DNA of 64,000 bases from Anaspis maculata (taxonomy: Eukaryota > Arthropoda > Insecta > Coleoptera > Scraptiidae), in contig OX421963.1 in the NCBI GenBank assembly GCA_949128115.1, positions 90,715,602-90,779,601 on the forward strand, written 5' to 3'. The position numbers and the translations under genes are program-made. This document shows, in pieces, positions 17,340 to 62,942 of the stretch. The notes beneath the pieces were generated by a model. That model saw only the letters and a list, made by a program, of their open reading frames with translations. It had not been told where the DNA came from and searched no databases. Every line of letters begins with the position of its first letter. The first letter of the stretch is position 1.

Positions 17340-17530
17340 TTAGATGAAGCGATGGTTTTCTTTGTGCTTGGCCAGCAAATGATTCTGGAGGTGGTGCTTG
17401 CGTGTCGAAACGTAACTGCACAGGTGGCAACGAAACTTGGGCATCTGTCCGCACTCGAGCTTCAAGTGCTGCGTCAGGCTCCTCTTGTACTTGTACGGCC
17501 TGTCGCACTTGAAGCAAGTGAATTGTGGGC
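17340..17530 (-). CDS. lola: lola alternative terminal exon (distal-most in window)
   Basis: Terminal exon giving one isoform-specific DNA-binding region of lola, a nuclear BTB/zinc-finger factor. The acceptor is TTTTTCAG followed by GC, which completes a split codon. The product is about 62 residues: finger 1 CFKC-x12-H-LKLE-C, linker GQMPKF, finger 2 CHLC-x12-H-LLAK-H, then a short tail and TAA. An AATAAA polyadenylation signal lies at 17299-17304, about 36 bp past the stop. This is the exon farthest from the shared 5' part. A 106-codon frame on the same strand in another phase is a shadow of it. Confidence 0.9.
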
Positions 17531-17944
17531 CTGAAAAATGATCAGGTCAGAACTGTGAAAATTTCAACACACTCACTGGAGTGAATGGCGTTCGACAAGA
17601 CTTCAACGCCGATGAAAGAATGCCCTTAGTATCTTATCCTATAGAAAGCTATGCATGAAACATACGCGGAACCATCTCAACATTTTTCATTGAATTGAGA
17701 AAAAAAATTTCTATTCAAAAAAATTCAATCAGACAAATTGTTTTAGAAACCTAAAACTATTCCTTAAATTAAATTACTTAAATTAAACGTAAATTAGAAC
17801 TATTCCGTTTTAATTTCAAAAAACCATTTATACACCAACTGTACAAGATTAAACTTTCAAGGTCTACACCCTACTATACCCCGAGTATTCAAATATTCAC
17901 CTTCGTTACTTAAACTTTTCAAGTCTTTAATATTATATTGTTAA

Positions 17945-18523
17945 TTATTCCTTGTTATACAGACCACAATTGGTGGTGAGATGTTGAATTTCTTCAATAA
18001 ATATATTATTCAAAAGAGTTAAAACAAGTTCTTCATCAACATTAGTGGATAAAGAAGAAACGTCAAGTGAAATTAGGATATAATCATTAGGAATGATCAT
18101 ATTAATGATTTTTTCAACAAATTCATAGGAATTTTTGATGTTATATTTAAAAGTTGGTATCAAATCATTAATTATAGTTGTGATGTATTTTGATAGAGAA
18201 AATGATGGAGAACGTATGCAAGACACAATCGGTCTTAATGGATTGTCTTGTTTATGTATTTTTGGTAAACCGTATATTTTTGGTGAATGACCAGCATGAG
18301 AAATTAAGGTGTTATAGATTTTTTTATTGATGATGTTAGAATCTAATAATTGTTTAGAAAATTGGTTTTTCTTTCTTTCGATTGAATTGGTAGGATCTTT
18401 TCTCAATAATTTGTATGTATTAGTATCGTTTACAATTAAGTTATTAATTTTTTCTTTATAATCTCGCCTATTCATTAAAACCGTAACATTACCTTTATCT
18501 GCCCTAGTGACAATTTTCATCAT
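17945..18523 (-). pseudogene. Penelope-like element, reverse transcriptase N-terminal part
   Basis: 192 residues with the N-terminal signature of Penelope-like reverse transcriptases: RADKGNVTVLMNRRDY, then PKIYGLPKIHKQ..PLRPIVS, then ISLDVSSLSTNV. It stops before the YVDD core, so it is truncated on the downstream side. Upstream sequence (18524-18700) is AT-rich and shows only weak traces. This belongs to a different Penelope subfamily from the copies at 22 and 58 kb. Confidence 0.75.
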
Positions 18524-20569
18524 GTTGTTTCAAATAATTTGTTGTGATCTTTTATAGGTTATTGGTGTCATTATTTTTATTTTTATAATTTTTATGGTGT
18601 TTAAGTTTATTATATTGATTATAATTGATATTTATGGCTCTAGATCTATGAATCTTTTTACTATCGTCATTTGGGGAGAGAATCTATTATGTGCTCTAAA
18701 TTTTTTATAATGTTGACAATAGGAAAATCATTTATGTCATGGTCTAGAGTGAATTTATGACCTAAGCTTCACTCAAATCTGCAATAAGGTGTACAATTTA
18801 TCGCGGTGAGCTTCTAATTATTCACCTGCGAAATGATGTTGTTTCTTTTTGTCTTGGAGCATTTTCGAAGCGACACTGAATTTTATTGGGATATTTCAAA
18901 AGGATTCTCTTTTGGAACTCAACCTTATTGCTCATAAACTCCTTGTCGTGCGAAAAGGGTCAGATCTTTTATTCTATGGGGTGAGATAACATGTGAGATT
19001 GTCGCCCAGATTCGATTTGCATGAATACTGCTAGTGTTTTGTCTCAAGCTGATAGAGTATACAAAATCATACTCTGTAGGAAGCTAGATCTCTTCAGAAG
19101 GGTTACTGAGGTTTTCACAATTTTTCTGGTGTCTTGAAGGTGGCTATAAACAAGGTATTGAAAAGCTCACAGCAATTACAGGGTATTGAATTGGTTTGAC
19201 GCTTCCTATCTATGACTGCTCGAAATATCAAGAACAAAACCTACAATCATTTATAGACAAAACAATTACTTCAACCCCAACAAACAATTATCATTTGATT
19301 ACAATGGACATCAGACTTGCCTTTATATTTTCTTTTATTATCAGCGAATCTCACACAAAAATTCGTTGGCCTAAAGTGACCCGTAGCTCAGAAGGAGATG
19401 GGGGTGGGTTGACCTTTCAGCTATTCTCGACGGTTCAAACAACACGAAATTTTTTCAAGGGCGCCACCTGCAATAGTTGATAGTCCAAATCGCATGAACG
19501 ATGGTAATGGTATGCGAAATTTGACGTTTAGAGCGTCTGGAACGATCTCGAATTGGTGTGGCGGCTTGAGCGGATGAAGTGAAGTGTTCAGTTACAGTGG
19601 CTGCTGTAACCCCTATTCAGGGGTTATTGTCGACACCACAAGTGTATTTCCCAAATGCACTCGGCGCATATATGAGTATGTGTGAATGCGATGGATCTAA
19701 CGGATCTATTTACGTACACAGACGTATAAACAGAAAGGATTCTGATGACCTAAAATCGATGAGTATTTTAGCGGACGGATATTTGAAAAATCTAGCTCAC
19801 CATTTGATTCGTGAGTCAACTTCTAACAATTACAATTTTCTACGGTATTCGTACTATACTGCATGTACGCGTAATCGATAAAACTGTGGAAATGTATGAT
19901 GATTTTGGTCGATTTAATTGGAATTCACCAAGCGGGCACGCGGCACCGTTTTTGACGTGAAATCTCAACTCAGAATAAATGTTCTTTCTCTACGGAAAAA
20001 GCTTATCGCCCCTTATCGTATTGCTAAAGACTTCTCTGCCTGTATTTTTGGTCCTATTTCAGCCAGGTTTTACCTCTATTCACAGGGCCTGATTGAATCA
20101 AAATACCAATTGGGCCAGTACGTATGTTTTTCAAATTTTAGCCCGTAATACTTTTCTCGTAACTGGTGCACTACAACTATCAACAATGATCACTTATTTC
20201 TTCTTGATGAATATTAATTTTCTCTTTTCCCACATCTGTCGTTGTCCACTGCTACGACGCTCCATTCCTTCATCCCCGTGTTCTTGGACCCATTCTTTCT
20301 TGCTCCATCCCCTCTGCTAAAATCTCCCTTGACCACCAAGCTCATGTGTCGGTCCCTACTACCTACTTAGTTACTTGCTCGTGCTCCAGTGTTGTTCGAA
20401 ATGAAACAAGAAGCTACTTGTAAATACAGTCTTCATTGACGCAACAGTCACACAGCAGTATATAAATTGTAAAAATGACGAGAAAAATGTGAGTTGAACA
20501 AAAAAATCGCACAAAGTGGCACCACTTTACGCCAGTCACAGAATAGGTTGTATAACTAAAAAAGACAAA
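18524..20569. other. Intronic repeat debris, no gene seen
   Basis: Between two lola exons. Short frames at 19196-19480, 19579-19881 and 19918-20148 show no recognisable domain. No RNA gene seen. Confidence 0.4.
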
Positions 20570-20769
20570 CTAAAGAAACATCAGACTGGCCAGCTGGGGA
20601 TGACGCTTTCTGATGTGCTTGGTCATGTTCTGCTTCCAATTAGAAACGTAGGCACATTTCGGGCAGGCGATGGACGGCAGCTTGCCGCACTCATGTTTGC
20701 CGTGAGCTATCAAATTGCGTCTGTGCTTGTATGACCTGTAGCATTGCTGACACGTCCACAAATATTCCC
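20570..20769 (-). CDS. lola: lola alternative terminal exon
   Basis: Acceptor GTGTTACAG, then GG completing a split codon, then EYLWTC. Finger 1 is CQQC-x12-H-GKHE-C, linker GKLPSIA, finger 2 CPKC-x12-H-IRKR-H, tail PQLASLMFL, stop TAG. The layout is the standard lola pair. It is the second exon from the distal end, about 3 kb upstream of the 17.3-kb exon in transcription order. Confidence 0.92.
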
Positions 20770-21039
20770 CTGTAACACACAAAAATTACCCGTCAGTTTT
20801 TGACTTGGTCACAAGAATAACATACAGAGTGCCTAACTCAAGATTTGAGGCCATCAAACCGATACCAACGCTATAGCTTATCAATCGATGTTGTTTTTCG
20901 CCGGTTCAGACCAGTCCAAGAGATATGAAACATGTCATAGGTACTTGTCAAGTTTCGGCATGAAATTGTGTCACTCCAAGTGAAGCTCTTGATAGGTTTC
21001 AAACAGCGGCAAAATTGCGTCTCTGCCGATATCACTGAA

Positions 21040-22148
21040 AAGTTATAAGCGGAACGGTTGCGGCTACAATTGTGAAACGACTGGACACATCGTCGCTGAA
21101 TGCTTTTCAAATTGTAACGCCCGTAACTTTTTTGTTGTAAAAACTAAGAACGTGATTCTTTCGCTATTGTTTCAAGCTAATCAAGAGCTATATTGTAACA
21201 GTTCCAATAGTGGTTCCAGTTCGGTGTAGCTTGAGATTCATAAAAGGGAAGGGGGAGGAGAAGGAAGAGGGAGAGGAGCATATCCTGAGCGTGGCTATCT
21301 CTAAAATTCACTCCTGGGAAGGTTTGGTTTTGTTAGCCTTGAGCGGCGCAGGGAGTTTCAGTCCATTCAGTTTCTCCATAAACTCATTAATGGCTACTTA
21401 TATCTGCCAAACTTTCTAGCCAAGATACCCTTGAATGGTCCTAGACCAGGGTTGAGAGGTTCTGAGACTTTCTAAAGCAAATCGCGAATAATTTTTGGGC
21501 TGCTTCTCTGACGCTTTTTTTTATTTCATCTTGGATTAAATTTCTTTAAAAAATTCCTACGTAGAATTGGATATTTTGAAAATGGAATTGAACATCATTT
21601 GGATGGCTTCGAAGAATGGAGAAAGAGCCATTTCTTTGTCTCTATTGATAAAAAAAAAATCAGGAATGGGACCTCTGCTGCTACACTTGCGAAAGCGTTA
21701 ACACTTGGTGGCTGAATGCCTTCGAAACAGTAGGTTTGTTCTAACAAAACATCGAACCGCAGTACTTCAACCATTATTTCCACCTAATCACAAGCTATGT
21801 TTCGATAGTTCAATATTGGTTTCATCTCGATTCGATTTTTCCAAAAAGATCTTCGCTTTCGATTAGCGCTATTGAGAACGTATGAACTGAATACCGGTTT
21901 ATCAGCTTCAAACACTGTCGACAGAATCTAGTCTATATCTATATCAATAAAAAAAAGTTACAAGCGAAATTGTTGCTGCTACCATTGCAAATACATTGAT
22001 CACACAACCGCCGTATGCTTTACAAACTGTAACGCCTATAGCTTTTCCACCAATCAAGATAAAACCGCGATTTTTCCGGTAATTGTTCTGCAAAAGAAAT
22101 TGATTAGTTGGTTAGCTTGAAACAATAACGAAAGAAATAGAGTTGTAT
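21040..22148. repeat. Degenerate repeats with GCTACAATTG...CTGTAACGC unit
   Basis: Diverged copies of a 150-300-bp unit lie at about 21050-21240, 21660-21840 and 21950-22120, with further copies at 23850-24020 and 24090-24200. Shared phrases are GC(T)GCTACAATTG, TGCTTT.CAAA.TGTAACGC and AGTTCAATATTGGTTCCATCTCG. Non-coding; class unknown. Confidence 0.5.
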
Positions 22149-22252
22149 AATATCGTAAAAGTTGAGAGATTCTCTTAATGGAGGCATCTTGTAGAAATGA
22201 AGTTGTATAAATAATCTGTTTCTCCACGTAAATTGTATAAATATATTTTTCT

Positions 22253-22297
22253 GACGCGTTTCGGCCTTACAATTGGGGGTAAAGGGCCATCTTCAAA
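22253..22297 (-). ncRNA. Hammerhead-ribozyme-like motif in Penelope end, copy 1
   Basis: The minus strand has TTGAAGA, then TGGCC, a loop, GGCC, GAAA, CGCGTC. The consensus hammerhead core is CUGANGA, stem II, GAAA, stem III. Stem II (GGCC/GGCC) is intact but the first core base is T for C. Hammerheads are known from Penelope-like elements; here it is likely degenerate. Confidence 0.4.
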
Positions 22298-22409
22298 GCA
22301 GTAAGGGTGTAAAATGTATAAAGTGTCAAAGTCAAAGTAAACAATTAAATAATAATAACAATCAAAACAGGTTGATTAGAGACAAGGTATGTATTATTTT
22401 GGTTTATTG

Positions 22410-22763
22410 TTAAGAATTTTGAATTTTTGTAGGAGGATAAAGAAAAGGGAGTAAAATTGATGAATTAAAATAGATTTGGTCGTTCAAACAAAGATTAGGG
22501 AATTTTGAATATAACTTCCTTATTTCTAACTCCTCGAGATAGTTACATGACATTTTATCGTCTGTTGTATGTGATACTTTTTTGAAAAGGGTTTGATCTA
22601 TGTGATGGGATGGGAGTGATAAATGAGAAGTGGATGCTGAATTATTGTCGAGTTTCAAAGTATTTAGAGGTCGCAGGTGTTCTTTAATTCGTACATTGAA
22701 ATTTCGATAAGTTCGGCCAACATAGAATTTTCCACAGCTACATGTCAATTTGAAAAACGCCAC
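22410..22763 (-). pseudogene. Penelope GIY-YIG endonuclease domain, copy 1
   Basis: 117 codons. FKLTCSCGKFYVGRTYRNFN, with KLTC in place of the GIY strand, followed by RIKEHLRPL, matches the GIY-YIG nuclease fold with an added CX..C as in Penelope elements. It is read separately from the reverse transcriptase because of frame breaks. Confidence 0.8.
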
Positions 22764-23215
22764 TTTTTTCGAAAATCGGAATAAATGTTTTGTTTTTTAT
22801 GATTGATGATTTCAAAGGATGAGGTATCAAAAAAGAAATTTTGATGTTCTGACTTTTTAATAGATTCGAGATTTTTTCGGAAATATTTTAAAAATATGTT
22901 AAAGAAATATATGTAATTCTCGAATCTTCCTGAGAAGAATCCAATGAAGTGACTTGATTAATTTGGAATTTGTGAAGTATTTTCTGATATAAAGAATTAT
23001 TTAACTTCAGGGGATAGTAATCATTTACTGCGATTTGTTTGATCAGATTCAATTCTTTATTGAAATTTATATCATCCATTGGAATAGAAAATAAACGATT
23101 GAAACTTGAATGGGAAAATGCTAGTTTGTGCGACATGGGATGAGATGAAAAAAAAATGGAATAATAGAATCTGTAGAAGTTGGTTTATGATAAATTTTGA
23201 AGGAAAATTTATTGT

Positions 23216-23776
23216 TCATAATGGAAATAGATCAAGATAAGAAATTTTGTTGTTTGTGCTAAATTCAACTGTAAATTTTGAATTTTGATGAACATTATTC
23301 AAGAAATCTAGGAACATTCTAACTTCATCTTCAGTTCCATTGAATAAAACTAAGATGTCATCAACATAGCGAAACCAATTGAGCATATGACGTAAAAATA
23401 AAATATTTGTTGAGATCTTTTCCTCTTCGAGAGAATTTAGAAAAACTTCAGCTGAAAATGGGGAAAGTGGGGATCCCATACCTAGTCCAGTTTTTTGTCT
23501 ATAAATTTTATTGTTAAAATTGAAGAAATTTTGTTTAACAGCAGTTTCTAAAAGAGAAAACAAGCTATTTGAATAATTGTCTGGAAGAGAGGAATTGAAT
23601 AGCATATTTTCTATTAAAAGTAGACATTCTGCAATTGGAACGGATGGGAATAAATTTGTGACATCAAAAGAAATCAAAAATAAATTTGGTAGTGGAACAA
23701 TGTTTTCAATTTTGTTGATCAAATCGGTTGTTTTTTTGATACTGAAATTTGGTTTAAAATTCAAAATATCTGGCAA
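23216..23776 (-). pseudogene. Penelope reverse transcriptase core, copy 1
   Basis: 186 codons covering motifs from SFDVTNLFPSVP through GLGMGSPLSP to the catalytic FRYVDDILVLF and a following KFTVEFSTNNKISYLDL. N-terminal part missing and a frame break after SYLDL. Confidence 0.85.
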
Positions 23777-24279
23777 AATTTCAACTAAGGAATTTTGATA
23801 GTTTATAGGCAGGAGAATTTATAAAAGAAACAACGGGTCTTATCGGAAGAGTCATTAGAAACTGCAACGCTCGTAATTTTTTTAACCAAAAAGATAGAAA
23901 CAAAAATTCTTCCACCATGACTTGGGAGCGATCACGAGTTCTATTTCAATAGTTCTATATTGGTTCCATCTCGGTTTGACCCTTCTGGCCGTATTCATGT
24001 TTAGAGGTAGCTATCATGGAAATAATAAAATTCAGTTCATTACATTTGAGCAATGGCCACAGAATCACATACCTATCTCAATAACTGAAAAAATTACGAG
24101 ACACGTTGCTGCTGCAATTGCAAAGACATTGGACACACGGCCGGTGAATGTTCCAAAACTGTAACGCTCACAACTTTTTTATTATAAAGCTAGAAACGTG
24201 ATTTTTTCGCTGCCAAAATAATCTATTTATTTTCAATTTTTCTATTCATTTATTTTTGTGAATGAACTACACACGTTTC

Positions 24280-24491
24280 TTAGGAAATGTTGAGCTCCTT
24301 CAGATGAAGAGTCCTGATGTGCGCGTTGAGGTTGTCTTTGCGCTTGGACACGAAGGGGCAACCGCTGAAGATGCACTTGAACGACGGAATCTTGCCGCAC
24401 TCGAACTTCTTGTGCCTCCTGAGCGAGTGCAAGTGCGAGTACTTCTTGCCGCATCGGATGCAGCAGTACGGCACGAACGGAAAGAAACCGC
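24280..24491 (-). CDS. lola: lola alternative terminal exon (CX4C second finger)
   Basis: Acceptor GTGTGTTTCAG, then GC completing the split codon, then GGFFPFVPYC. Finger 1 is CIRC-x12-H-KKFE-C, linker GKIPSFK, finger 2 CIFSGC-x12-H-IRTL-H (CX4C spacing), tail LKELNIS and stop. An AATAAA signal lies at 24249-24254, close behind the stop. The next exon in the transcript direction's upstream side begins only about 200 bp away. Confidence 0.92.
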
Positions 24492-24687
24492 CTGAAACAC
24501 ACAAAAAAAGAGTAAAACAAAAGAAACTAACTTGGGCGTGTCATGCCGCATGCTGTCTACCAAGCTCCAACTAAAAGCTTCTACAAGGCAAGCACAAGTC
24601 AGTACAGTGGAAAAGGATTCGTGATTATAGGTTAAAAACAACTCGGGAGCAATATTTATCGGCTTTTACTTTGATACAAAATGACTT

Positions 24688-24881
24688 TTATGATGAACTC
24701 TTGTCGGGGTTCATTTTACACCCCTTGATGTGTCTGTTCAAAGTGGAGCGAAAGTGGAATGGTCTCGAGCAGTATGCGCAGGCCAAGCCGGGTGGTTTGC
24801 CGCACCGGACTTTCACGTGAGTAGCCAAGTCTCTCTTGTAGGTGTACTGGCTTCCGCAGGATTCGCATTCAAATTTTGCAC
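24688..24881 (-). CDS. lola: lola alternative terminal exon with two CCHC fingers
   Basis: Acceptor TTGTTCTAG, then GT completing the split codon, then AKFEC. Finger 1 is CESC-x12-H-VKVR-C and finger 2 CAYC-x12-H-IKG-C. Both end in cysteine, unlike most lola exons here, where the second finger ends in histidine. The linker is GKPPGLA and the tail KMNPDKSSS. The frame is open for another 190 bp upstream through the intron, which is chance. Confidence 0.88.
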
Positions 24882-25084
24882 CTAGAACAAAGTTGTCATG
24901 AAATCGCTTGATTTTTTCCATGAAAATGAAATTAGGATCAAAGTTGTGCATATATTTATTGAAGAAACTTAACAACACAACACAATTGTGGTGTGTGCAG
25001 CAAGAAATAGTGCAGAAATGTGAACAAGCGGTCAAATTTCGATTACCAACGAGTTTATTTGTGCATTGATCCAACGTATCTATC

Positions 25085-25460
25085 TTAATGAATTGTTATT
25101 AAATGTTTTCCAACTTGTTTGAGTTCAATTTCAAGTATGAGCCTTGAGTAAAGGGAGCCAGAGACATGTCTAGAGTGGACATAGATGACTCGACTTAATG
25201 GGTTAACATAAAAAAAAACAATATAAGGTGTCAACATATGAGGTGATGCAACGACAGGTGGGTGATGCAATGTCAAGTGCGTAAGTCAATACTGTCCGGG
25301 AGGATAGGGCCCCTGCCCGAGTTCCGGATGTTGATAGAAATCAAGACAATCTTAGGAGAGTGAAGCCCTATAATCATTCTTCAACTGGTGTCAGAACCTA
25401 AAGGGGTTTGAGTTTTCCCTGACACCAGTCAATGTCGATTTTCACAGGTATTATCCTGAG
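25085..25460. repeat. S-type repeat, copy 1
   Basis: Shares with 48350-48690, 49780-50110 and 52590-53510 the phrases TCAAGTA(T/C)GAGCCTTGA.T.A.GG, TGTCCGGGAGGATAGGGCCC and GA(T/C)ACCAGTCAATGTC. Non-coding; probably LTR or another terminal piece of an unidentified element. Confidence 0.6.
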
Positions 25461-25539
25461 CGCCTGCGCGACAATAAGGAAAAATTGAAACTTGAGATTG
25501 AATGGTCCGATGCGAGAATTCGAAATAACTTTCCAATGG

Positions 25540-26323
25540 CGATATGTTTAGCTAGACTGTCTTTTCCTTGGTTCAGCTCAAATTTGAACTATTGTTAAAT
25601 TTGGATAGGTTTTTCTCTCAGATATCATGGCATCGCCCACCGTGCTTGTCAAATAGGTTAGGTAGTTTACGACAGGTACCTAATTTGCGGGTGCGCAAAG
25701 CCCACCTAAATTGTAGCGAGGATCTGATGTCAGAGCGCAAGGCCATTCTAGTGGGTTTTACGTGGTTTCCTCATTGGGTCAATAGGCGAATGTCATGGCT
25801 ATCTTTCTCCACTGGGAGTCCAACGGGACTCCGATTGCTCTGATTAAATGGAGAACTGTGATTAGGGTTAGAATAGGATGTTTAAGGAAATCTCCCACTG
25901 ACTAGGGTAGGACTAAAGACCTGTGTATCAATTAGTCTTGTCTCTGTCATGACTTTGTTTCAATAAACAGGATTGTGGTTTAAATTTCGCGTTACGTCTC
26001 TCTGTTTAGTACCTGTTCTCTTGTGTCACTTATCAATAAAAGAACAAGCGGTTATGGATTATTTCGGCACAACGTAGGTGAAAGAGGAACAGGGAGCTAT
26101 TAGCGGAGCTCCCCGCATTGTCGCTCTCTTTGACAGAGCAAGTGAAAGGGTTCAGTAGGGGAAGGAAGAGGAGGCTTTATTAGCGGAGCTTACCCAAGTG
26201 TTTGTGTTAATCTACTGTAAGAGGCCAGACAGCAGTTAAGTATGTGTTTATTTTTTGTCAGACGATCACGCCTGAGGTATCAATTGAAGGGTTGAGGAGA
26301 GGCAAAGGGGCTGTACCGTTACA
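25540..26323. repeat. Solo-LTR-like repeat, copy 2
   Basis: Diverged copy of 12129-12912, with the same order of phrases (CAGATATCATGGCATCG, CCCACTGACTAGGGTAGGA, AATAAACAGGATTGTGG) and the same end GTACCGTTACA. Old insertion in a lola intron. Confidence 0.6.
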
Positions 26324-26391
26324 GTACATTAACAATTTACCTTCTATTATTTTATTCAGCATATAGAAACGTCTACATAGATTTGTTTTGT

Positions 26392-26603
26392 TTACAAATT
26401 GAGATTGTGGGTTTGTCGCTGATGGGCGTTCAGGGTGTATTTGTAGTGAAACTTTTTGCGGCACAAGTGACACTCGAAGCTGGGCGGTTTGCCGCATTCG
26501 TACTTCAAGTGGCTGGACAGGTGGCGCCTGTACTTGTAGTTCTTCTTGCAGTTGATGCAAAAGTAACGCACTTCGTTCGCCGCGTCGTCCCATATCTCCA
26601 AGA
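26392..26603 (-). CDS. lola: lola alternative terminal exon, duplicate A
   Basis: Acceptor CTTTTTCCAG, then TC completing the split codon, then LEIWDDAANEVRYFC. Finger 1 is CINC-x12-H-LKYE-C, linker GKPPSFE, finger 2 CHLC-x12-H-QRQT-H, tail NLNL, stop. AATAAA at 26351-26356. It is a near copy of the exon at 33917; differences include AAN/ASE, CINC/CTNC, YRRH/YKSH and HQRQ/HKRQ. Confidence 0.93.
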
Positions 26604-26742
26604 CTGGAAAAAGCCGCAATTATTTCATCTTTTCATAAATATTAGTGATTTTGTTACATAAACAAGCATTGATGCATTCACAGTGATTACTGATTTTGTT
26701 ATGACTAGTAATTTATTTACAAGACACACTGTTAGCTACAAA

Positions 26743-30205: not shown

Positions 30206-30447
30206 TTAGGCTAGCTTGTCGGTTTCGTTTTGGACTTCCGACGGCGTGATGTCGGGCGTACGGTCGCGCTTGGGGCAATAATTCGAGAGGTGGCGCTTCA
30301 TGGTGGAGTTGCGCTTGAACGTCATGCCACAAAGCGGGCAGGGAAAACGAGTGTGGCTGTCGGTCTGGTGCAGTTCTCGGATGTGACGGTACAAGTGGTG
30401 TTTTCTGGCAAACGACGCCTCGCAGTGTGGGCAGTCGTGTCTAACAC
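30206..30447 (-). CDS. lola: lola alternative terminal exon with reversed finger types
   Basis: Acceptor TTTTGTTGCAG, then GT completing the split codon, then VRHDC. Finger 1 is a classical C2H2 (CPHC-x12-H-IREL-H), the linker is longer (QTDSHTRFP), and finger 2 is CCHC (CPLC-x12-H-LSNY-C). This is the reverse of the other exons, where the first finger ends in cysteine. The tail of about 21 residues (KRDRTPDITPSEVQ...) is Thr/Asp/Glu-rich. The frame and acceptor phase are as in the rest of the array. Confidence 0.9.
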
Positions 30448-33916: not shown

Positions 33917-34128
33917 TTACAAATTGAGATTGTGGGTTTGTCGCTTGTGGGCGTTCAGGGTGTATTTGTAGTGAAACTTCTTGCGGCACAAGTGACACTC
34001 GAAGCTGGGCGGTTTGCCGCACTCGTACCTCAAGTGGCTGGACAGGTGACTCTTGTACTTGTAGTTCTTCTTGCAGTTGGTGCAAAAGTAACGCACTTCG
34101 CTCGCCGCGTCGTCCCATATCTCCAAGC
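33917..34128 (-). CDS. lola: lola alternative terminal exon, duplicate B
   Basis: Acceptor GGCTTTTTCCAG, then GC completing the split codon, then LEIWDDAASEVRYFC. Finger 1 is CTNC-x12-H-LRYE-C, linker GKPPSFE, finger 2 CHLC-x12-H-KRQT-H, tail NLNL. AATAAA at 33874-33879. It pairs with 26392; both the exon and the 3' region up to CCTTCTATTATTTTATTCAGCAT are shared, so the duplication includes the polyadenylation signal. Confidence 0.93.
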
Positions 34129-34179
34129 CTGGAAAAAGCCGCAATTATCGTATGTTGTCATAAATAGTAGTATTTTATT

Positions 34180-35208: not shown

Positions 35209-35414
35209 CTACTTGACGAATCTTTCGAAAGCGCCCAAGGTCGAATGGCAGTCTTTAAAGTGCGTTTTGACCCGGTCTTTGCGATTGAACAGGCGGTTGC
35301 AGACCGGGCAAGGGAACCGCGGCGGTCTACCGCATTCGTGATGCGTGTGCCGGCTCAAACTCGTCTGGTTCTTGTACGATTTCCCACATTTCATGCACGT
35401 GAAATAGACGTAAC
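35209..35414 (-). CDS. lola: lola alternative terminal exon, partner of the decayed copy
   Basis: Acceptor GATTGTATTTCAG, then GT completing the split codon, then YVYFTC. Finger 1 is CMKC-x12-H-THHE-C, linker GRPPRFP, finger 2 CPVC-x12-H-FKDC-H, tail STLGAFERFVK and stop. AATAAA at 35178-35183. This is the intact version of the pseudo-exon at 26743. Confidence 0.92.
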
Positions 35415-47351: not shown

Positions 47352-47578
47352 TCAATAATTGAGAGCTGTTTTGAATCTCACGATGTACTTGTCGCATTCG
47401 ATCATGCCGTGAACGTTGAGCAAATGATGGCGCACGGTATTGGCCCTCGACGCTTTGTACGTGCACCTTCCGAACCGACAGTGATAAGCCCTCGCCTGGC
47501 CGCAGTAGTACGTCTCGTGGACGTACAGCGAGTTCTTTTTCGTGAATATTTTGCCGCACCTTCTGCAGTTGTGCATTC
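47352..47578 (-). CDS. lola: lola alternative terminal exon (CX4C second finger, long tail)
   Basis: Acceptor TTTGTTTAAG, then GA completing the split codon, then MHNC. Finger 1 is CRRC-x12-H-ETYY-C, linker GQARAYH, finger 2 CRFGRC-x12-H-LLNV-H, followed by an 18-residue tail (GMIECDKYIVRF...). The acceptor polypyrimidine tract is weak (AAACAAACGTTTGTTTAAG-like), but phase and layout fit the array. The neighbouring exon's stop is only about 200 bp away. Confidence 0.88.
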
Positions 47579-47782: not shown

Positions 47783-48027
47783 TCAAGAAAGCAAGAATTC
47801 TTCGTTATCTTTCCCGATGTAGGAGTTGATGCTGTGGCGGATCGTATGCGTTTTCGAAACGTGTTTCTTGACGTTTTCTTTTCGATTCGATTTGAACGTG
47901 CACTCGGGGAACGTGCAGATGAACGCCTTGCGCTGGCCGCAGTCGTACTTCAAGTGTTTGTACAACGAGTTGCGCTTGGAGTAGTACTTGTGGCAGTTGG
48001 GGCAGCAGAACACCTCCGGACTCACGT
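47783..48027 (-). CDS. lola: lola alternative terminal exon (CX4C second finger)
   Basis: Acceptor TGCTCCATTTCAG, then AC completing the split codon, then VSPEVFCC. Finger 1 is CPNC-x12-H-LKYD-C, linker GQRKAFI, finger 2 CTFPEC-x12-H-VSKT-H, tail of about 20 residues (TIRHSINSYIGK...). Two AATAAA signals at 47737-47742 and 47746-47751 follow the stop. Similar in build to the exon at 47352, so the two may be old tandem duplicates. Confidence 0.92.
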
Positions 48028-53510: not shown

Positions 53511-53531
53511 ATTCAAAGACTAAAAGCAAAT

Positions 53532-53813: not shown

Positions 53814-54052
53814 TCAAATGTCTGAAGTTCCCATCTGCGAGTGATCGTAGCTGTTCTTCTCCCGTGACGGCACCATGTCAATGCAGTCTGGATGGTGAAT
53901 GGACATGTGGCGTTGCAGCGACAACTTTCGCGTGTACGCTTTGAGGCAAAGCTGGCAGACGAAATGAGAGATGCCCTCGCAGTTGTACTTCATGTGCCGG
54001 TACAAGTTGCAGCGGTGCTTGTACCAGCGCTGGCATCTCTGGCAGGTGTAGC
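53814..54052 (-). CDS. lola: lola alternative terminal exon
   Basis: Acceptor GCCGTGTTTCAG, then GC completing the split codon, then YTC. Finger 1 is CQRC-x12-H-MKYN-C, linker EGISHFV, finger 2 CQLC-x12-H-MSIH-H, then a long polar tail (PDCIDMVPSREKNSYDHSQ...). AATAAA at 53759-53764. The tail, with Ser, Asp and Lys/Arg, has no recognised domain. Confidence 0.9.
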
Positions 54053-54553: not shown

Positions 54554-54744
54554 TTATTTATTTTGCTCGACATATGAGTGGACCGTACGTAAGTGCGTGA
54601 TGACGCTGGATTTTTGTGTAAAGCGTTTCTGGCACAGGTGGCACTCAAAGGACTTGTTGCCGCCGCATTCGTACCGGATATGGCGGTTCAGCGTGATTTT
54701 GTATCTGTAAGAGCGTCCGCAGGCGCCGCAGGGATACAAGTGAC
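54554..54744 (-). CDS. lola: lola alternative terminal exon, stop inside an AATAAATAA run
   Basis: Acceptor TTTGTATTTCAG, then GT completing the split codon, then HLYPC. Finger 1 is CGAC-x12-H-IRYE-C, linker GGNKSFE, finger 2 CHLC-x12-H-LRTV-H, tail SYVEQNK and TAA. The last codons read AAT AAA TAA AC, so a polyadenylation hexamer overlaps the end of the coding sequence; another signal farther on may be used. Start of this exon is set by the acceptor. Confidence 0.92.
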
Positions 54745-55115
54745 CTGAAATACAAAAGTATTAGTAATTGATGTTGGAAGTCATTCGGCTTAGCCCTTTT
54801 GTGTAATTTTCAAGCTTAACCCTTTTGTGCCCGTCTTCAGCTTAATTCACACATCTTCAGTTGATAAGGATAAGTTTAATAAGTCGAATCAAACCTTGCC
54901 TTGTTGACACTTGTCATATTGTCTTGTTGCTTGTCTCCCTGCTGCGTACGTGTAGAAATGCACCTGTACTAAAGCTTCGAAACACGAAGATCAAAGAAGA
55001 AAAATAAAACTCTTCAATTGATATTTCAGATTCTCAATATAATTTGTACCTATTCATCATGATTTTGTTTATTGAAAAATAAAATTGGAGCTTTTCTTCA
55101 TCATTCTTGGCAGCT

Positions 55116-55324
55116 TCAAGACTTTGGCAGTAGGCAAGCGGCGACGCCGACCTTGGTCAGCTTGTGCTTGGTCATCATGTGAACCTTCAGGTTGTCGATC
55201 TGCGTCAGCTTGGCGAAACAAATGGGACAAGCGAACTGGGGATCTTTCTGGCATTCGTACAGCACATGCCTTTTCAGACTGCTCTTGTACTTGTACCTTC
55301 TGCCGCAAACGTCGCAAACGTGAC
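55116..55324 (-). CDS. lola: lola alternative terminal exon
   Basis: Acceptor GTGTTTTTTGCAG, then GT completing the split codon, then HVC. Finger 1 is CDVC-x12-H-VLYE-C, linker QKDPQFA (Gln in place of the usual Gly), finger 2 CPIC-x12-H-MMTK-H, tail KLTKVGVAACLLPKS. AATAAA at 55068-55073. The finger 2 helix has FAKLTQIDNLKV, lacking the common basic residue before the helix. Confidence 0.92.
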
Positions 55325-56054
55325 CTGCAAAAAACACCCGGTATAAAAATCCGGTGTAGAAGTCGGCCACATTATTATTTCAGAAAGTTTGGACAAAAAT
55401 TCAAAATTGAGGAAAAAACTTTGGAAAAGTTAGCTGGGTCTCTCTTTTCACTTACTAAAAGCCCAGAGCTGAGGGGTTGAAAATTTTAAACTTGGACCTG
55501 GAGGAATAAGGTGCTGACAACAAAGAGGTAGGTCCTTACGTTTATCGAATAGGTATATTGGGTATTCAAGATCAACCTCCAAAATGTAACCATAGTAAAT
55601 AGCTTTAGGTGTATTCATGATATCTTCATGATGATTATCTTGACTTTCAATCCACTGGAAACCTCCATACACGGTAAATGATAACTCATTGCTGCACCAT
55701 AAAGGTTATCAACATCAAAGTACATGAGAAACGGAGAATCTAGATTGGGATCATAATCTGATCCCATCCCATGTACTTATCATTTGCTTTACCTTAACGA
55801 TTTGAGCATTGTAAAACCCCTATTGTGAACTTAGAAGAGTAGGGAAGCAAAACAAAAGAACCAGCGGATCAGCCTAAGCCCCCCACGAACGCCTACTTTA
55901 CTATGCATGCATAGATTAACTGAATGATTGAATGTTGAATAATTATAATTTTCTTGATATTTTCGCTCATTTTTTATTGTGTTAAGTTGCGATTGCACAT
56001 AAAGCACCATCTTGTCACTCATCATCACATAAACTACTATCGATACTTCTTTAC
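55325..56054. other. Intronic, palindrome arm and no gene
   Basis: One arm of the 45.1-kb palindrome family lies at about 55630-55740 (CCACTGGAAACCTCCATAC, GGTTATCAACATCAAAGTAC). Otherwise nothing. Confidence 0.5.
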
Positions 56055-56260
56055 TTATGGATGTAGCATTATGTAATGCTTCTTGAGGCTGCTCTTGTGC
56101 TTGAATCTACGCATGCAGATCTTGCATTGGAACTGCGGTTCGACGCCGCATTCGTACTTGATGTGCCTGGCCAAGTGTCCTTTCTGCTTGTATGAAGACG
56201 TGCACTGCGGGCACATGTACCGGCCTTCCAGGTCTTGCGAAAACGTCATGTCTCTGAAAA
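56055..56260 (-). CDS. lola: lola alternative terminal exon, duplicate C1
   Basis: I place the start at the acceptor ACATGTTTGTAG, followed by TT, which completes the split codon, then FRDMTFSQDLEGRYMC. A second in-phase acceptor, TTATTTCCAG at 56321-56322, would add 20 residues, but it is not conserved in the duplicate. Finger 1 is CPQC-x12-H-IKYE-C, linker GVEPQFQ, finger 2 CKIC-x12-H-YIML-H and a stop right after HP. It is one of an exon pair duplicated at 61968/62607. Confidence 0.9.
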
Positions 56261-56647
56261 CTACAAACATGTTATTAGAAAAGGCCTCGCGCGCGCTGAC
56301 TACAACTGGGAAACCTTCACCTGGAAATAACACAAGCATTCGCTCAGTTTAGAACTTTATTCAATCAATATTGCATACAACAGATCGTTACCGAACCCAA
56401 AAATGTTAAAAAAGGAGGTATTAATAAAGGTAAAATACAGAAATAATAATGTGTGTCTTGAGCGTACTGGGTCATAACTGACTCACGATTGAACGTCAGA
56501 CTCTATACATATAAAACCGAGTATAAAACTAAGAAAAGCTGAGCAAGCAGTATACATGAAATAAGCGACTTTAGCACTATAACGAAGGAAAACTGTGATA
56601 CAGATAATTTAATAACCTAAATAAAATACACACGCGCATGCGCCAGC

Positions 56648-56883
56648 TCACATGCGATGTGAAGACCACATGTGCGCCTTGTAGTTGCTCTTTTGCTTGA
56701 ACTTGCTGCCGCAAAAGCACTTGAATTTCGGTTCCATGCCGCATTCGTGGTTCAAGTGTCTGACCAAGTGGGTCTTGTTCTTGTACGAGGCGCCGCACTT
56801 GTGACACGGAAACCTCCCGTTCGAATCCATAAGATACTTGCTAGGCTTGGTGGGCTTGGTAAATCGACCGGGACACCAGAAAG
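56648..56883 (-). CDS. lola: lola alternative terminal exon with CX1C finger, duplicate C2
   Basis: Acceptor TTTCATTTCCAG, then CT completing the split codon, then FWCPGRFTKPTKPSKYLM and DSNGRFPC. Finger 1 is CHKC-x12-H-LNHE-C, linker GMEPKFK. Finger 2 is unusual: C-F-C-x12-H-MWSS-H, with only one residue between the cysteines. Stop after SHRM. The N-terminal lead of about 27 residues is longer than in most exons and Pro/Lys-rich. The CX1C spacing is shared by the duplicate, so it is not a recent error. Confidence 0.9.
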
Positions 56884-56999
56884 CTGGAAATGAAACAAAA
56901 AAATTATTTCAATGACCCATAATTTATTTATAAAATTTCAAACATGTACACAAATTACTCAAAAAACTACACAAAATGCATGCATATGGTTGCGCAAGA

Positions 57000-57574
57000 A
57001 ATGGCATGGCTCGTTTATATTTGGCTTTACTCCGTGGCTCACAGTTTACCATGCCACAGAGGGAGCCAGAACCTGGTCAGGACCTGGGTCGTTCTACCGC
57101 GGAACTGGTGTAGCAGGATTAAGGTCAATTTTTGATCAATTCAAATCAGGCAATGTTCAACGAAGCTCAAGAAATGATAGTGCAAATTGTGATAAAAACA
57201 ACAGATTTGGCACAATTATTCCTTGGAGGAAAATAAACGATTTGGCCCGCTGCACTGATCGATCAACCGCCGGGGGGGCCGAGATTTTGAGGGGGCCAAC
57301 CAAAGGGCAAATTTTTTCTTGGGCATCGAATGCCGCTACAGAATCATGCTAGGCGACGTCCCTTAAGGCTGTGTACGCAGGTTATCGAAATTTCCCCCTC
57401 AAAAATAAAGGTAAAGAGATAAGATATACCTTTTTCCAGTTTGGATCACCCCATTTTTTTTTAAAAGCCCAATAGCCCTGAAATACTACAAAAGTTTTTC
57501 AAGGATTGCTGGAACATTTTTTGACAAACGAAAAAATTATCAACTTATAATTTTGAGAGACGTAGAAAATTGAG
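57000..57574. other. Transposon debris left of Penelope copy 2
   Basis: No gene. At 57490-57574 lies the left part of the repeat also seen intact at 32185-32330. A G-rich stretch is at 57268-57290. Confidence 0.4.
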
Positions 57575-59226
57575 TATATCGTAAAAGTTGAGGAATTCTC
57601 TTAATGGAGGCATCTTGTAGAAATAAAGTTGTATAAATAATCTGTCTCTTCACGTAAATTGTATAAATATATTTTGCTGACGCGTTTCGGCCTTACAATT
57701 CGGGGCAAAGGGCCATCTTCGAAGCAGTAAAGGTGTAAAATGTGTAGAGTGTCAAAGTCAATGTAAACAATTGAATAATAATAACAATTAAAACGAAGTT
57801 GGTCAGAGACAAGGGATGTATTATTTTGGTTTATTGTTGAGAATTTTGAATTTTTGCAGGAGGATAAAGAAAAGAGAGTGAAATTGATGAATTAAAATAG
57901 ATTTGGTCGTTCAAACAAAGATTGGGGAATTTTGAATAAAACTTCCTTATTTCTAACTCATCGAGATAGTTACATAAAATTTTATCGTCTGTTGTATGTA
58001 ATACTTTTTTGGAAAGGGTTTGATCTATGTGATGGGATGAGAGTGATCAATGAGAAGTGAATTCTGAATTATTGTCAAAATTCAATGTATTTAGAGGTCG
58101 CAGGTGTTCTTTAATTCGTACATTAAAATTTCGATGAGATTGGCCAACATAAAATTTTCCACAGCTACATGTCAATTTGTAAACGCCACTTTTTTTCAAA
58201 AATCGGAATCAATGTTTTGTTTTTTATGATTGATGATTTCAAGGGATGAGGTATCGAAGAAGAAATTTTGATATTCTGACTTTTTAATAGTTTCGAGATT
58301 TTTTTTTCGGAACTATTTATTTGAAAAATATGGTTAAAAAATATATGTAATTGTCAAATTTTCTTGAGAAGAATTAAGTGGAGTTACTTGATTTATTTGA
58401 AATTTATGGAGTATTTTCTGATATAAAGAATTAATTAACTCCAGGGGATAGTAATTGTTCATTTCTATTTGTTTGATCAGATTCAATTCTCTATTGAAAT
58501 TTATATCATCCATTGGAATAGGAAATAAACGATGAAAACTTGAATGGAAAAATGCTAGTTTGTGCGACATGGGATGAGATGGAAAAAAATGGAATAATAG
58601 AATCTGTAGAAGTTGGTTTATGATAAATTTCGAGAGAAAATTTATTGTTTATATTAGATAGATAGATCAATATAAGAAATTTTGTTGTCTATGCTAAGTT
58701 CAACTGTAAATTTCAAATTTGGATGAACATTATTCAAGAAATCTAGGAACATTCCAACTTCATCTTCAGTTCCATTGAATAAAACTAAGATGTCATCAAC
58801 AAAGCGAAACCAGTTGAGTATATGACGTGAAAATAAAATATTTGTTGAGATCTTTTCCTGTTCGAGAGAATTTAGGAAAACTCCAGCTAAAAATGGGGAA
58901 AGTGGGGATCCCATACCTAGTCCAGTTTGTCTATAAATTTTATTGTTAAAATTGAAGAAATTTTGTTCAACAGCAGTTTCTAAAAGAAAAAACAAGCTAT
59001 TTGAATAATTGTCTGAATGAGAGGAATTGAATAGCATATTTTTTATTAAAAGTAGACATTCTGCAATTGGAACGGATGGGAATAAATTTGTGACATCAAA
59101 GGAAATTAAAAATGAATTTGGTGGTGGAACAATGTTTTAATTCTGTTGATCAACTCGGTTATGTTTTTGACAGTAAAACTTGGTTTAAAATTTATAATAT
59201 CTGGTACAATTTTTACCATTTTGAAA
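57575..59226 (-). mobile_element. Penelope-like element, copy 2
   Basis: Minus-strand element closely related to 22149-23860: reverse transcriptase core (58654-59105; GLGMGSPLSP, FRFVDDILVLF), connector (58334-58570) and GIY-YIG domain (about 57860-58200; KLTCSCGKFYVGQSH), the latter with an in-frame stop. It interrupts a repeat whose empty form is at 32.2 kb; AAATTGAGTA flanks both ends, indicating a target duplication of about 10 bp. Confidence 0.85.
57679..57724 (-). ncRNA. Hammerhead-like motif in Penelope copy 2
   Basis: Same layout as in copy 1: CGAAGA, TGGCC, loop, GGCC, GAAA, CGCGTC. The core CUGANGA reads TTCGAAGA here, so the ribozyme is probably inactive. Confidence 0.35.
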
Positions 59227-59394
59227 TTGAGTACATTCCAGAGCCGTTTTTTGGAAAAAGTTCTCAACAAGAAAGAAACAAAAATCACATAATTGAAAAA
59301 CGCTCTGTATCAAGTTTTTTAATACATTTAGTCCTAGTGATGGGCAGTAGCGATAAATTTCACTATCGAACAATCGACTATCGAATGATTCATC

Positions 59395-59520
59395 TTAATT
59401 CATTCATTCATTCACATTATTCTATTGAATTCATTCATGTGTCATCGAATCATCTATTCATTCATTCATTCATTCATTCATTCTATTTATTCATTCATTT
59501 ATTTATTTCATTCCATCTAA
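59395..59520. repeat. (ATTC)n microsatellite
   Basis: Runs of ATTCATTCATTC with interruptions; a second block of the same kind at about 60095-60245. Confidence 0.8.
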
Positions 59521-59721
59521 TCACCAATCATCAAATTTGATCAATATTATATATATTCGTTTACTTTCTCAATTTTTATCCATTCATCCATTTGATCCAT
59601 AAAATCAACTGAAACATTAAATATTTTCAAATTTCAAAGTTCAAACTGATTCAAACTTATTGATTGTTGTTCACGAAACGGCACCTCGTACAATCAACCA
59701 TTCGTTAAGAAATTGAATTGT

Positions 59722-59920
59722 TGAGGCTGAAAACATACTAGAGCGGTGAGCAACGCGACGATGCGAGCGAAGAGCGTCGAAAATAACAATACGTATTGTG
59801 TGGAAAGGCGACGCTTCAGTATGTGCATCCTAATAGGAATATGTGTGTTTGATTTCGCCGCTTTGCTTCCCGCTCTCATCGTCGCTTTGCTCACCGCCTC
59901 AGTATGTTTTCAGCCTGAGG
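59722..59920. repeat. 195-bp palindrome
   Basis: GGCTGAAAACATACTAGAGCG and GGTGAGCAACGCGACGATG on the left are mirrored by CATCGTCGCTTTGCTCACCG and AGTATGTTTTCAGCC on the right. GC-richer than the surroundings. Non-coding MITE-like. Confidence 0.75.
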
Positions 59921-60344
59921 TAAGTTCTAGGTAGAGGTACTATAGGAACTAGGACCAAGTATTCTGTTTTCAGTTGTCATTGTCGTAAATCGTGAGTGAT
60001 TTTTGCAACTGAATGGCCTTGACTGAAGCCACATGTCATTTATTGTAATAGAACAGATTTGTTGAATAACAAGTGAAAATTCCATTCATTCATCAATTAA
60101 TTCTGTTTTGCATTCAAAATTATTCAATTCCTCTGTCAAATCCACTCGTATATTGAATCATTCGTCCATTTATTCGTTTATTCATTCGTTCATCTATTCG
60201 TTCATTTATTCGTTCATTCGTTCATTCATTTATTCATTCATTTGAACGTGCTATAGAATAAACAACAACCATGATTTACAAATTAATTTACATCTATAAA
60301 AGCTCTTTACACAATTATCATGTTATCTTTTATACTGTATTCCT

Positions 60345-60440
60345 TTTAGAAGCCTTGATAAAGTCGACATACCATCGACGAAACGTCGGCAGTCTAAAAA
60401 AGGAAAAAATAAACGTTGTCCAATATATCCAATAGTTTTA
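60345..60440 (+). ncRNA. Hammerhead-like motif of a Penelope-type remnant
   Basis: TTGATAA, GTCGA, CATACCA, TCGAC, GAAA, CGTCGGC at 60355-60390: stem II (GTCGA/TCGAC) and GAAA are perfect, the CUGANGA core has two mismatches. AAACGTCGGCAGTCTAAAAA and CAATATATCC that follow are like Penelope ends known from other insects, from memory. Confidence 0.45.
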
Positions 60441-60467
60441 AATACTATTATTTGATAGTATTTATTC

Positions 60468-61109
60468 TAGTGATGTGAAAAAAGGAAGGATTCGTTCCTA
60501 AGTAATCGTTACCTGTCGTGTACTCGTTGGAACGAATCCTGACTTTGAAAAGTATTCGTTCTTTTTCGGTTTCGTTACTGGACGAGTTATGCGGAGTTAG
60601 ATCTATAGCCATTCTCATTTACCTGGGGTCTTCGGGGCACAGGTTCACCTATATTGGCTGTCATTGGTCGAGTTCAAGCAACCAGCTCGATCGATAACCG
60701 CTCCCGGTTTAACAACCAATTGAACCAGTGAGCTTGTCTACTTGAAGACCTGCGCACGAGCTGTGAGCTAAGGGAACCGCCTATATGAGAAGGTCTATTC
60801 TGTGGTTAGAGCAGAGAGGGAGAACTACTCGTGGTTAGTAATTCGATATTTTTCCGGAAGTAAACGAAAACCAAAACAAAGCGGGCGAATTTCTTGAACT
60901 CCAATTTTTTATTGTTATCATTATGTAAGGGATACTCAATACTCATTTTTTTCTAATAAAAACCGTAGAATGTGGTCAATTCAATTGATCTCAATATTTT
61001 CGCAAATTGTAAACGAGAGTAACGATAACGAATACAAAAGAACTAATACTGTTAACGGAAGTAACGAGTAGTAACGAGTATCCGAAAGTAACTGTTATTC
61101 ACATCACTA
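60468..61109. mobile_element. hAT-type non-autonomous element, inner
   Basis: Terminal inverted repeats TAGTGATGTGAA and TTCACATCACTA bound 642 bp. A perfect 8-bp target duplication, ATTTATTC, flanks it (60460-60467 and 61110-61117). Non-coding; inserted in the outer hAT-type element. Confidence 0.9.
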
Positions 61110-61133
61110 ATTTATTCGATAGTGCCCATCACT

Positions 61134-61966
61134 ACTCAGTACACAGTCGGCCGCAGCCAGTCAATCCGTCGAGCACCGCCTGTGTGCGCCCTAGGTGTTG
61201 CCTTGCCGATTGCGACTGCACACTGCACGAACTGCGTGTCTTTTAATGACTGGTGCATAATCTGTATATTGTCTTCACAAAGACGAGTATACAGATGATC
61301 CAATGGTATTGAATGCTGTGGTCGGACGTCGGACGTGTTAACTCTATTCACGTTGGTTCGTTGGTCGCGGGGCGGTGGTTTGGCCGCACGGCGCCCTCTC
61401 TTGGTCACCGTTGGGACCTCCTACTCGCAGCTTGCTGAGTGCGCTTGCTACCTATTCATAATAATTCCCTGGCGTTTCCTAAACGCTTTATGACAACTGT
61501 TTTATACTTGAAGAGAATCTGTAATAAATTAATTTTCAATCATTCACACGTTCATAGCTAGTCAATCAATTTGAACAATACAAGCAGTGTGTGATGAGCT
61601 TGTGAAGAGCTTTCCAGCAATATCAAGCACGACTTATTTACAGCTGGATTATTTTCTTGCAATCACAGCTGCTCCCTTCCGCGAAACTTTGGCCATCAAT
61701 AACTTTTTCATCCGACGAGATAGGAACGTATTTTTTTCGCTGCGAGTAAGGCCTAGCCGAGAGCTACATTTTGACTTCATACAATCAAACTTAGCTAGAC
61801 AAGGACACATCGATGTCGACTTTGTGTCGACGTTTTGTTTCATCGAACAATACCTTATACTAAACAAAACAAAATATGGCAAATCTTGTTGGAAATGTTC
61901 TTATTTGTTTTTAATCCATTACAATCAGTCAATTACATCGATATCGTTATTGTACATGAAAGTGTC
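61134..61966. other. No gene seen
   Basis: GC-richer at 61136-61440, where a 90-codon minus-strand frame has no recognisable domain. The rest is intron-like. Confidence 0.4.
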
Positions 61967-61967
61967 A

Positions 61968-62212
61968 TCAATTAATTCTCAAATATTTTTCTGCTTTACT
62001 TATGGAGAGATTATGTGTTGTTGTGTAATGCTTTTTGAGGTCGCCCTTGTGCTTGAATTTCCGCGTGCACATCTTGCATTGGAACTGGGGCTCGACGCCG
62101 CACTCGTACTTGATGTGCCTGGTCAAGTGTGCTTTCTGCTTGTACGAAGACGTGCACTGCGGGCACATGTACCGGCCATCAAGGTCTTGCGAAAACGTCA
62201 TGTCCCTGAAAA
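61968..62212 (-). CDS. lola: lola alternative terminal exon, duplicate D1
   Basis: Acceptor AACCTGTTGTAG, then TT completing the split codon, then FRDMTFSQDLDGRYMC. Finger 1 is CPQC-x12-H-IKYE-C, linker GVEPQFQ, finger 2 CKMC-x12-H-YTTT-H, then a 17-residue tail (NLSISKAEKYLRIN) because the stop of the C copy is lost. Compared with C1 the finger 2 helix reads KHKGDLKKH for KHKSSLKKH and finger 1 KAHLTRH for KGHLARH. The upstream acceptor of C1 is out of frame here. Confidence 0.9.
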
Positions 62213-62942
62213 CTACAACAGGTTATTAGAAAAGGCCTCGTGCGCGCTGACCATACAACTGGTGAACCTTCATCTAAAAATAACACAAGAATTCACTCAG
62301 TTTAGCACTTTATTTGATCAATATTGCATACAAAAAATTGTTATGTTATAAAACTGATATTATCGTACCCGAGAATGTTAAAAAGAAAGGTGTTAATAAA
62401 CGTAGAATACAGGAATAATGATGTGTGTCTTAAGCGTACTGGGTCGTAACTGACTCGCGCTTGAACGCGATACTCTTTATAAAACTAAGAAAAACTGAGC
62501 AAGCGGTATACATAAAATAAGCGACTTAAGCACTATAAAGAAGAAAAAAATTGTGATAAAGATGATTTTAATATATTGGATAGAATACACACGCGCATGC
62601 GTCAGCTCACATGCGATGTGAAGACCACATGTGCGCCTTGTAGTTGCTATTTTGCTTAAACCTGCTGCCGCAAAAGCACACGAATTTCGGTTCCATGCCG
62701 CATTCGACGTTCAAGTGTCTGACCAAGTGACTCTTATTCTTGTACGTGGAGCCGCACTTGTGACACGGATACCTCCCGTTCGAATCCATAAGATATATGG
62801 TGGGTTTGCTAGGTGGACCGGGGCGCCAGAAAGCTGGAAATTAAACAAAAAAATCATCCAGTTGCACATAATTTATTATTAAAATTTCAAACATGTACAC
62901 AAATTACTATAAAAACTGCACAGAAGGCATGCATATGGTTGC
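61995..62942 (-). repeat. Segmental duplication, copy D (two lola exons)
   Basis: Partner of 56049-56993. Similarity ends at GCATGCATATGGTTGC, after which a gypsy remnant begins. Confidence 0.85.
62607..62833 (-). CDS. lola: lola alternative terminal exon with CX1C finger, duplicate D2
   Basis: Acceptor GTTTAATTTCCAG, then CT completing the split codon, then FWRPGPPSKPTIYLM and DSNGRYPC. Finger 1 is CHKC-x12-H-LNVE-C, linker GMEPKFV, finger 2 C-F-C-x12-H-MWSS-H, stop after SHRM. The lead is shorter than in C2 by about three residues. This is the most upstream lola terminal exon in the window and nearest to the expected shared exons. Confidence 0.9.

Follow-up and report, generated by a model that had tools for sequence, protein, structure and literature searches.

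The lola gene of the beetle Anaspis maculata very probably ends in any one of at least 371 alternative 3'-terminal exons, which encode zinc fingers, lie in a single orientation and share one hub exon. The starting point was a 64,000-nucleotide stretch of the genome (the window hereafter; C3:90715602-90779601, C3 denoting contig OX421963.1) in which a first-pass annotation had described seventeen minus-strand exons, each with a finger pair and its own stop, as ends of one lola gene. A six-frame scan of the window confirms this description, placing 17 minus-strand finger-bearing open segments, all of them ending in a stop, at 17340-62833. In 15 of them both fingers are canonical, usually C2HC first and C2H2 second, whereas the open segments 56651-56908 and 62610-62840 have a degenerate second finger (C-x-C). 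The searched genome comprises 757.8 Mb in 50 contigs, from which we read base by base the window with the 200 kb to its right (264 kb together), 50 kb at and beside the hub, and 10 kb at the far left of the array. Six-frame scanning gave 60 open finger segments in the 264 kb and 17 in the 50 kb at the hub, 77 in all; one was cut by the edge of the DNA and dropped from the statistics on acceptors, polyadenylation signals, donors and exon pairs (n = 76).

The shared front end predicted by the annotation is present upstream of the finger exons, on the same strand, in the form of three exons, located by a genome-wide BTB search and 10 kb of sequence. Exon A starts with an ATG at C3:91802909 and ends SPFFE/GTAAGA (the slash marks the junction); exon B (C3:91797226-91797970) ends GGATCAAGTCAAG/GTAAAA in phase 1; and hub exon C (C3:91796612-91796701) has 90 bases, phase 1 at both ends, and the end CACAAG/GTAAGA. 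Exons B and C both terminate one base into a codon (G/GT), and the phase of the hub donor is the one predicted from the acceptors, so that the finger exons would fit one common front end. Exons A and B are two BTB-coding exons, and the BTB domain of their protein matches Pfam with an E value of 1.7e-27. The hub donor, at C3:91796612, lies 1.02 Mb to the right of the window's right edge; the shared exons had been correctly placed to the right, beyond the 64 kb, and wrongly expected within the next 50 kb. Exon B has one full-length match genome-wide, the next best being 37% identical, and no additional copy of exon B, of exon C or of the helix-turn-helix exon described below was found in the 264 kb.

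The predicted gene is lola. Across the full length of the query (100%), its common region shares 90-91% identity with the lola proteins of Tenebrio, Asbolus, Zophobas and Tribolium among the matches listed, and all species named among these 120 matches (of 2425) are beetles. Together with the TCAGG repeats described below, these identities mark the host as a beetle, probably close to the tenebrionids. A putative helix-turn-helix terminal exon (C3:91796785-91797062, minus strand) lies between exons B and C. It has a two-base acceptor, TTCTAG/AT, and is psq-like, its Pfam HTH_psq match (E 0.0095) falling below the cut-off. Asbolus P0015 and Exocentrus P0030 are lola proteins that skip the hub and carry a similar helix-turn-helix end.

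The acceptors of the finger exons share the phase that such a hub demands. An AG in open frame that leaves two bases to complete a split codon, as had been claimed for every exon, is available in 17 of the 17 window exons, compared to 7 for an AG leaving no base and 10 for one leaving a single base. Under a generic, phase-blind score, the best open-frame acceptor is a two-base site in 16 of the 17 and in 70 of all 76 exons, the best site leaving no base in three of the remaining six and one base in the other three. In a control set of 586 finger-free minus-strand open segments from the same DNA, scored alike, of which 541 had an open-frame AG, the best site was two-base in 186 (34%). The window exception, 61971-62222, does have a two-base site of lower score (TGTAG/TTTTCAG), and at the corresponding site of its sister exon, 56058, the tails of lola proteins P0038 (Leptinotarsa) and P0051 (Diabrotica) begin. 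The exons appear to be terminal: a simple strong-donor motif occurs between fingers and stop in 0 of 76, in line with the earlier remark that none has a usable donor, and a copy of AATAAA is present no more than 300 bases from the stop in 46 of 76 exons, compared to 28 of 76 when the other strand of these stretches is read and to 29% at random places.

Annotated lola proteins of relatives show the same junction. The set consists of the 120 matches listed, representatives of 90% clusters, many of them from one species. In 117 of the 120 the hub ends HRDSQ and a variable tail follows; of the other three, P0015 and P0030 skip the hub and P0075 differs at it. A donor ending in G demands a GNN first codon, and the first variable residue is G in 44, D in 30, V in 18, E in 16 and A in nine, that is, a GNN residue in 117 of 117, which bears out the common donor phase, one base from the hub being completed by two from the acceptor. 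Forty of the 117 tails match some exon read here (at least 55% identity over 48 residues), and ten of these align their residue 1 with the first predicted residue of the exon, as in Tenebrio AQDLRVSRPWERWP against AQDLRVTRPWEQWP here. The ten involve four exons (C3:90942485, 91754357, 91760027 and 91790774), none within the window; two further tails begin at residues 2-4, offset by one. The 22 tails of relatives that are free of finger motifs have no match in the DNA read. Some beetle lola isoforms (P0035, P0046, P0092) bear other ends, among them a homeodomain in Leptinotarsa (E 1.5e-15) and DUF4806 in Coccinella, and one Diabrotica isoform ends in a weak DDE-transposase-type zinc finger just below the cut-off. 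It seems that such lola arrays acquire foreign domains, for which transposons may be a source. A homeodomain end like that of Leptinotarsa was not found in the Anaspis array: none of 41 homeodomain-like genome matches falls in C3:90.36-91.80 Mb.

Several observations weigh against a single gene with hundreds of alternative ends. When the open-frame condition is dropped and all AGs within 330 bases are scored, the top AG is the two-base open site in just 44 of 76 exons (9 of 17 in the window). No match among the exons read was found for 77 of the 117 tails, and the tail of P0001 starts three residues past the predicted site of its best-matching exon. Direct reading covered about 314 kb of the 1.43 Mb and a further 10 kb at its far end, the remainder being covered by probe matches only. 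Such a reach of 1.43 Mb is, in our judgement, extreme for an insect gene. Lastly, 27 of the 76 segments have an in-frame ATG ahead of the first finger, which, together with their form as compact open frames with a stop of their own, would suit a cluster of independent zinc-finger genes whose expression is unrelated to the BTB gene. We regard such a cluster as highly improbable, given that the other 49 segments lack this ATG, that the acceptors share a common phase matching the hub donor, and that tails much like these exons occur on some lola proteins of relatives; for the few exons matched by those tails, independent genes are unlikely as it is.

The array of predicted lola ends extends over about 1.42 Mb (C3:90.368-91.793 Mb). 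Six finger-pair probes from the same genome were searched against all contigs and the best 150 matches of each were scored; 896 of these 900 fall inside C3:90368512-91790986, every one on the minus strand and with zero stops, and four lie elsewhere. The matches unite into 355 loci, and adding the directly read exons that the probes missed brings the count to 371, a lower bound that stays the same if neighbours at distances of up to 250 bases are merged, and falls to 364 with merging at 300 bases. Since the probes recovered 61 of the 77 directly read exons, the array probably holds about 450 (448) in total, given equal probe sensitivity in the unread part. The first-pass annotation had suggested a number at least comparable to flies; the seventeen in the window belong to at least 371 loci. 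In the 264 kb there are 60 minus-strand finger segments, one of them cut by the edge, at a median spacing of 1329 bases (mean 4177); the 50 kb at the hub holds 17, of which C3:91792062 has a lone finger. No plus-strand two-finger segment was found in the 314 kb scanned, and the 264 kb gave four plus-strand segments with one motif. The leftmost exon is at C3:90368467, and the 6.9 kb further out contains no similar minus-strand segment. A protein search with a single exon returned no matches, too few words being shared.

Growth of the array would have combined local tandem copying, over about 1-16 kb, with the copying of a block about 0.92-0.94 Mb away, the copies being kept by purifying selection. 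Among the 76 exons, 14 pairs are at least 60% identical. Seven are local, 1-16 kb apart, and include a two-exon unit copied inside the window (56058 and 56651 to 61971 and 62610). Five others form an ordered series 919-936 kb apart (C3:90829849, 90830445/90831443, 90835752 and 90859425 against 91760027, 91760544, 91771982 and 91778546), from which it appears that a large block was probably copied as well. An ordered series of this kind could also arise if the array were inflated by assembly error or by uncollapsed haplotypes. The block copies, however, differ by a synonymous divergence (dS) of 0.12-0.55, 0.12 being the minimum over all 14 pairs, which argues against uncollapsed haplotypes and leaves inflation with scarcely any probability. 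The near-identical window exons 26395-26619 and 33920-34144, 7.5 kb apart, have a third relative nearer the hub (C3:91693158-91693316), almost 1 Mb off and 92% identical to the probe modelled on the window pair.

The ratio of nonsynonymous to synonymous divergence (dN/dS) is below 1 in all 14 pairs (0.10-0.67; of the two pairs at 0.10, one has a saturated dS), and many copies are thus probably functional. One might instead suppose an array made up largely of decaying duplicates, with few ends in use, in view of the three degenerate copies in the 264 kb, the degenerate second finger of two window exons, the lone finger of C3:91792062 and the weak acceptors of some exons. This we consider improbable: besides the dN/dS values, the 896 array matches contain no stop, and the three degenerate copies compare with 60 open segments. 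No degenerate copy was found outside the open exons in the 50 kb at the hub, and the stops met in other alignments sit at exon boundaries, none inside an open exon. Under the conventional numbering of the four DNA-contact residues of a finger, the 77 first fingers show 69 distinct contact-residue sets, and the 68 second fingers scored show 63. Mean entropy is somewhat higher at the contact positions than at the other positions (2.81 versus 2.33, and 2.97 versus 2.56). As nearly all of these sets are distinct, a single gene could gain a far broader DNA-binding repertoire from the array.

In the mechanism that we propose, the hub donor would be spliced to one acceptor at a time, the ends presumably excluding one another, so that a single front end with an oligomerising BTB domain would receive one out of hundreds of DNA-binding ends with two fingers each, and the BTB domain would then unite different finger pairs. 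The uniform orientation and phase of the exons suggest that joining takes place mostly in cis, within one very long transcript. Given the 1.43 Mb reach, internal promoters are plausible, and for distal exons some additional trans-splicing from such promoters, of the kind known in Drosophila, is possible. A stronger version, in which the hub transcript does not reach the distal exons and their RNAs, started at internal promoters, are joined to hub RNA by trans-splicing, deserves to be entertained, although we lean against it. The 1.02 Mb between window and hub donor implies hours of transcription at usual rates, and part of Drosophila lola as well as mod(mdg4) use trans-splicing. The array differs from mod(mdg4), however, in having its 896 matches and every two-finger segment read on one strand, with the caveat that tandem copying alone could also preserve orientation.

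The coordinates of the window's predicted ends are given in Table 1. Of the 17 window segments, 14 were compared with Pfam; just two of these lacked a finger-family match, having none at all or one below the cut-off, and no FLYWCH match was listed for any of the 14. Scans for transfer RNAs and Rfam families across the window found nothing.

Table 1. Predicted alternative 3'-terminal exons of lola in the window (window positions; a slash separates the acceptor from its residual bases).
Feature	Position	Strand	Acceptor	Remarks
Alternative lola 3' exon 1	17340..17530	-	TTTTTCAG/GC	C2HC and C2H2 fingers; acceptor to stop; two residual bases
Alternative lola 3' exon 2	20570..20769	-	TTACAG/GG	
Alternative lola 3' exon 3	24280..24491	-	GTTTCAG/GC	
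Alternative lola 3' exon 4	24688..24881	-	TTCTAG/GT	
Alternative lola 3' exon 5	26392..26603	-	TTTCCAG/TC	Tandem paralogue of exon 7, 91% identity, dN/dS 0.25
Alternative lola 3' exon 6	30206..30447	-	TTGCAG/GT	Order C2H2 then C2HC
Alternative lola 3' exon 7	33917..34128	-	TTTCCAG/GC	
Alternative lola 3' exon 8	35209..35414	-	TTTCAG/GT	
Alternative lola 3' exon 9	47352..47578	-	TTTAAG	Unusual acceptor
Alternative lola 3' exon 10	47783..48027	-	ATTTCAG/AC	
Alternative lola 3' exon 11	53814..54052	-	GTTTCAG/GC	
Alternative lola 3' exon 12	54554..54744	-	ATTTCAG/GT	
Alternative lola 3' exon 13	55116..55324	-	TTTGCAG/GT	
Alternative lola 3' exon 14	56055..56260	-		Leptinotarsa (VFRNM) and Diabrotica (DFRYM) lola tails start at the 56260 site; a longer two-base acceptor at 56320 is possible
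Alternative lola 3' exon 15	56648..56883	-	TTTCCAG/CT	Second finger C-x-C
Alternative lola 3' exon 16	61968..62212	-		Copy of exon 14, 81% identity, dN/dS 0.37
Alternative lola 3' exon 17	62607..62833	-		Copy of exon 15, 85% identity, dN/dS 0.64

Mobile elements and repeats are interspersed with the finger exons. An open frame of 1110 residues from a long terminal repeat retroelement, with reverse transcriptase, RNase H and integrase domains, lies inside the array at window positions 2405-5734 (minus strand), and pieces of a reverse-transcriptase element (17948-23818, minus strand) lie between finger exons; RVT_1 is matched at 23219-23818, and the other pieces, without a Pfam match, look Penelope-like by eye only. 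A long tandem repeat, readable in several frames, occupies C3:90877100-90889400 within the array. In the genome as a whole, TCAGG, the beetle-type telomere repeat, gave 15,758 overlapping matches, and a search of the genome with six units of TTAGG gave none. The start of contig C1 shows, beginning at base 1018, short tracts of TCAGG spaced some 2,252 bases apart among the matches listed, forming a composite repeat at the contig end.

The predicted array is an extreme case of a known lola plan, found outside the order with reported giant arrays. In Nasonia vitripennis, more than 180 alternative lola ends occupy 325-350 kb, and the authors consider that there may be up to 250; Apis mellifera has 58 ends over 200 kb, and no similarly large expansion was seen in non-hymenopteran insects (PMC5000498). 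As in these two species, one hub exon would serve many 3' ends, and their median spacing of about 1400 bases resembles the 1329 of the 264 kb here. Measured against Nasonia, the array of this beetle has about twice the number of predicted ends and four times the length (at least 371 ends, about 450 estimated, 1.42 Mb), with the difference that the ends of Nasonia and Apis are supported by reads and those of Anaspis are known from genomic sequence alone. Drosophila melanogaster lola has 20 isoforms, 17 of them with fingers, made by cis- and trans-splicing (PMC1947980, PMC11426971), and its protein forms hexamers (PMC11426971); the likeness lies in the plan, in which alternative ends carrying C2HC and C2H2 fingers follow a common BTB region. 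Drosophila mod(mdg4) likewise joins a BTB hub to many alternative ends, about 30, mostly FLYWCH, with some variable exons on the opposite strand and with trans-splicing; the Anaspis array is all on one strand, and no FLYWCH was found in the window segments compared with Pfam. Nearer at hand, lola of Tenebrio, Zophobas, Tribolium, Leptinotarsa and Diabrotica has, among the matches listed, a common region 82-91% identical and the same junction. The ends listed in beetle lola annotations number dozens, with isoform numbers up to X50 in Tribolium madens, and annotation of lola in other beetles may undercount its ends.

In the literature consulted, which left out most subscription journals and all preprints, no giant lola array came to light in any insect order other than Hymenoptera. 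With that reservation, the Anaspis array contradicts the published impression that such arrays are confined to Hymenoptera, Nasonia having been the largest previously found in print. We think it rather likely that lola of Anaspis has the largest known set of alternative terminal exons, some 450 ends used one at a time from a 90-base hub exon over up to 1.43 Mb. The array makes it testable how splicing chooses among hundreds of equivalent acceptors across more than 1 Mb, and whether it does so in cis or in trans. If our reading is correct, giant lola arrays would be no hymenopteran speciality, and one transcription factor would have gained hundreds of DNA-binding specificities under a common oligomerising BTB domain.

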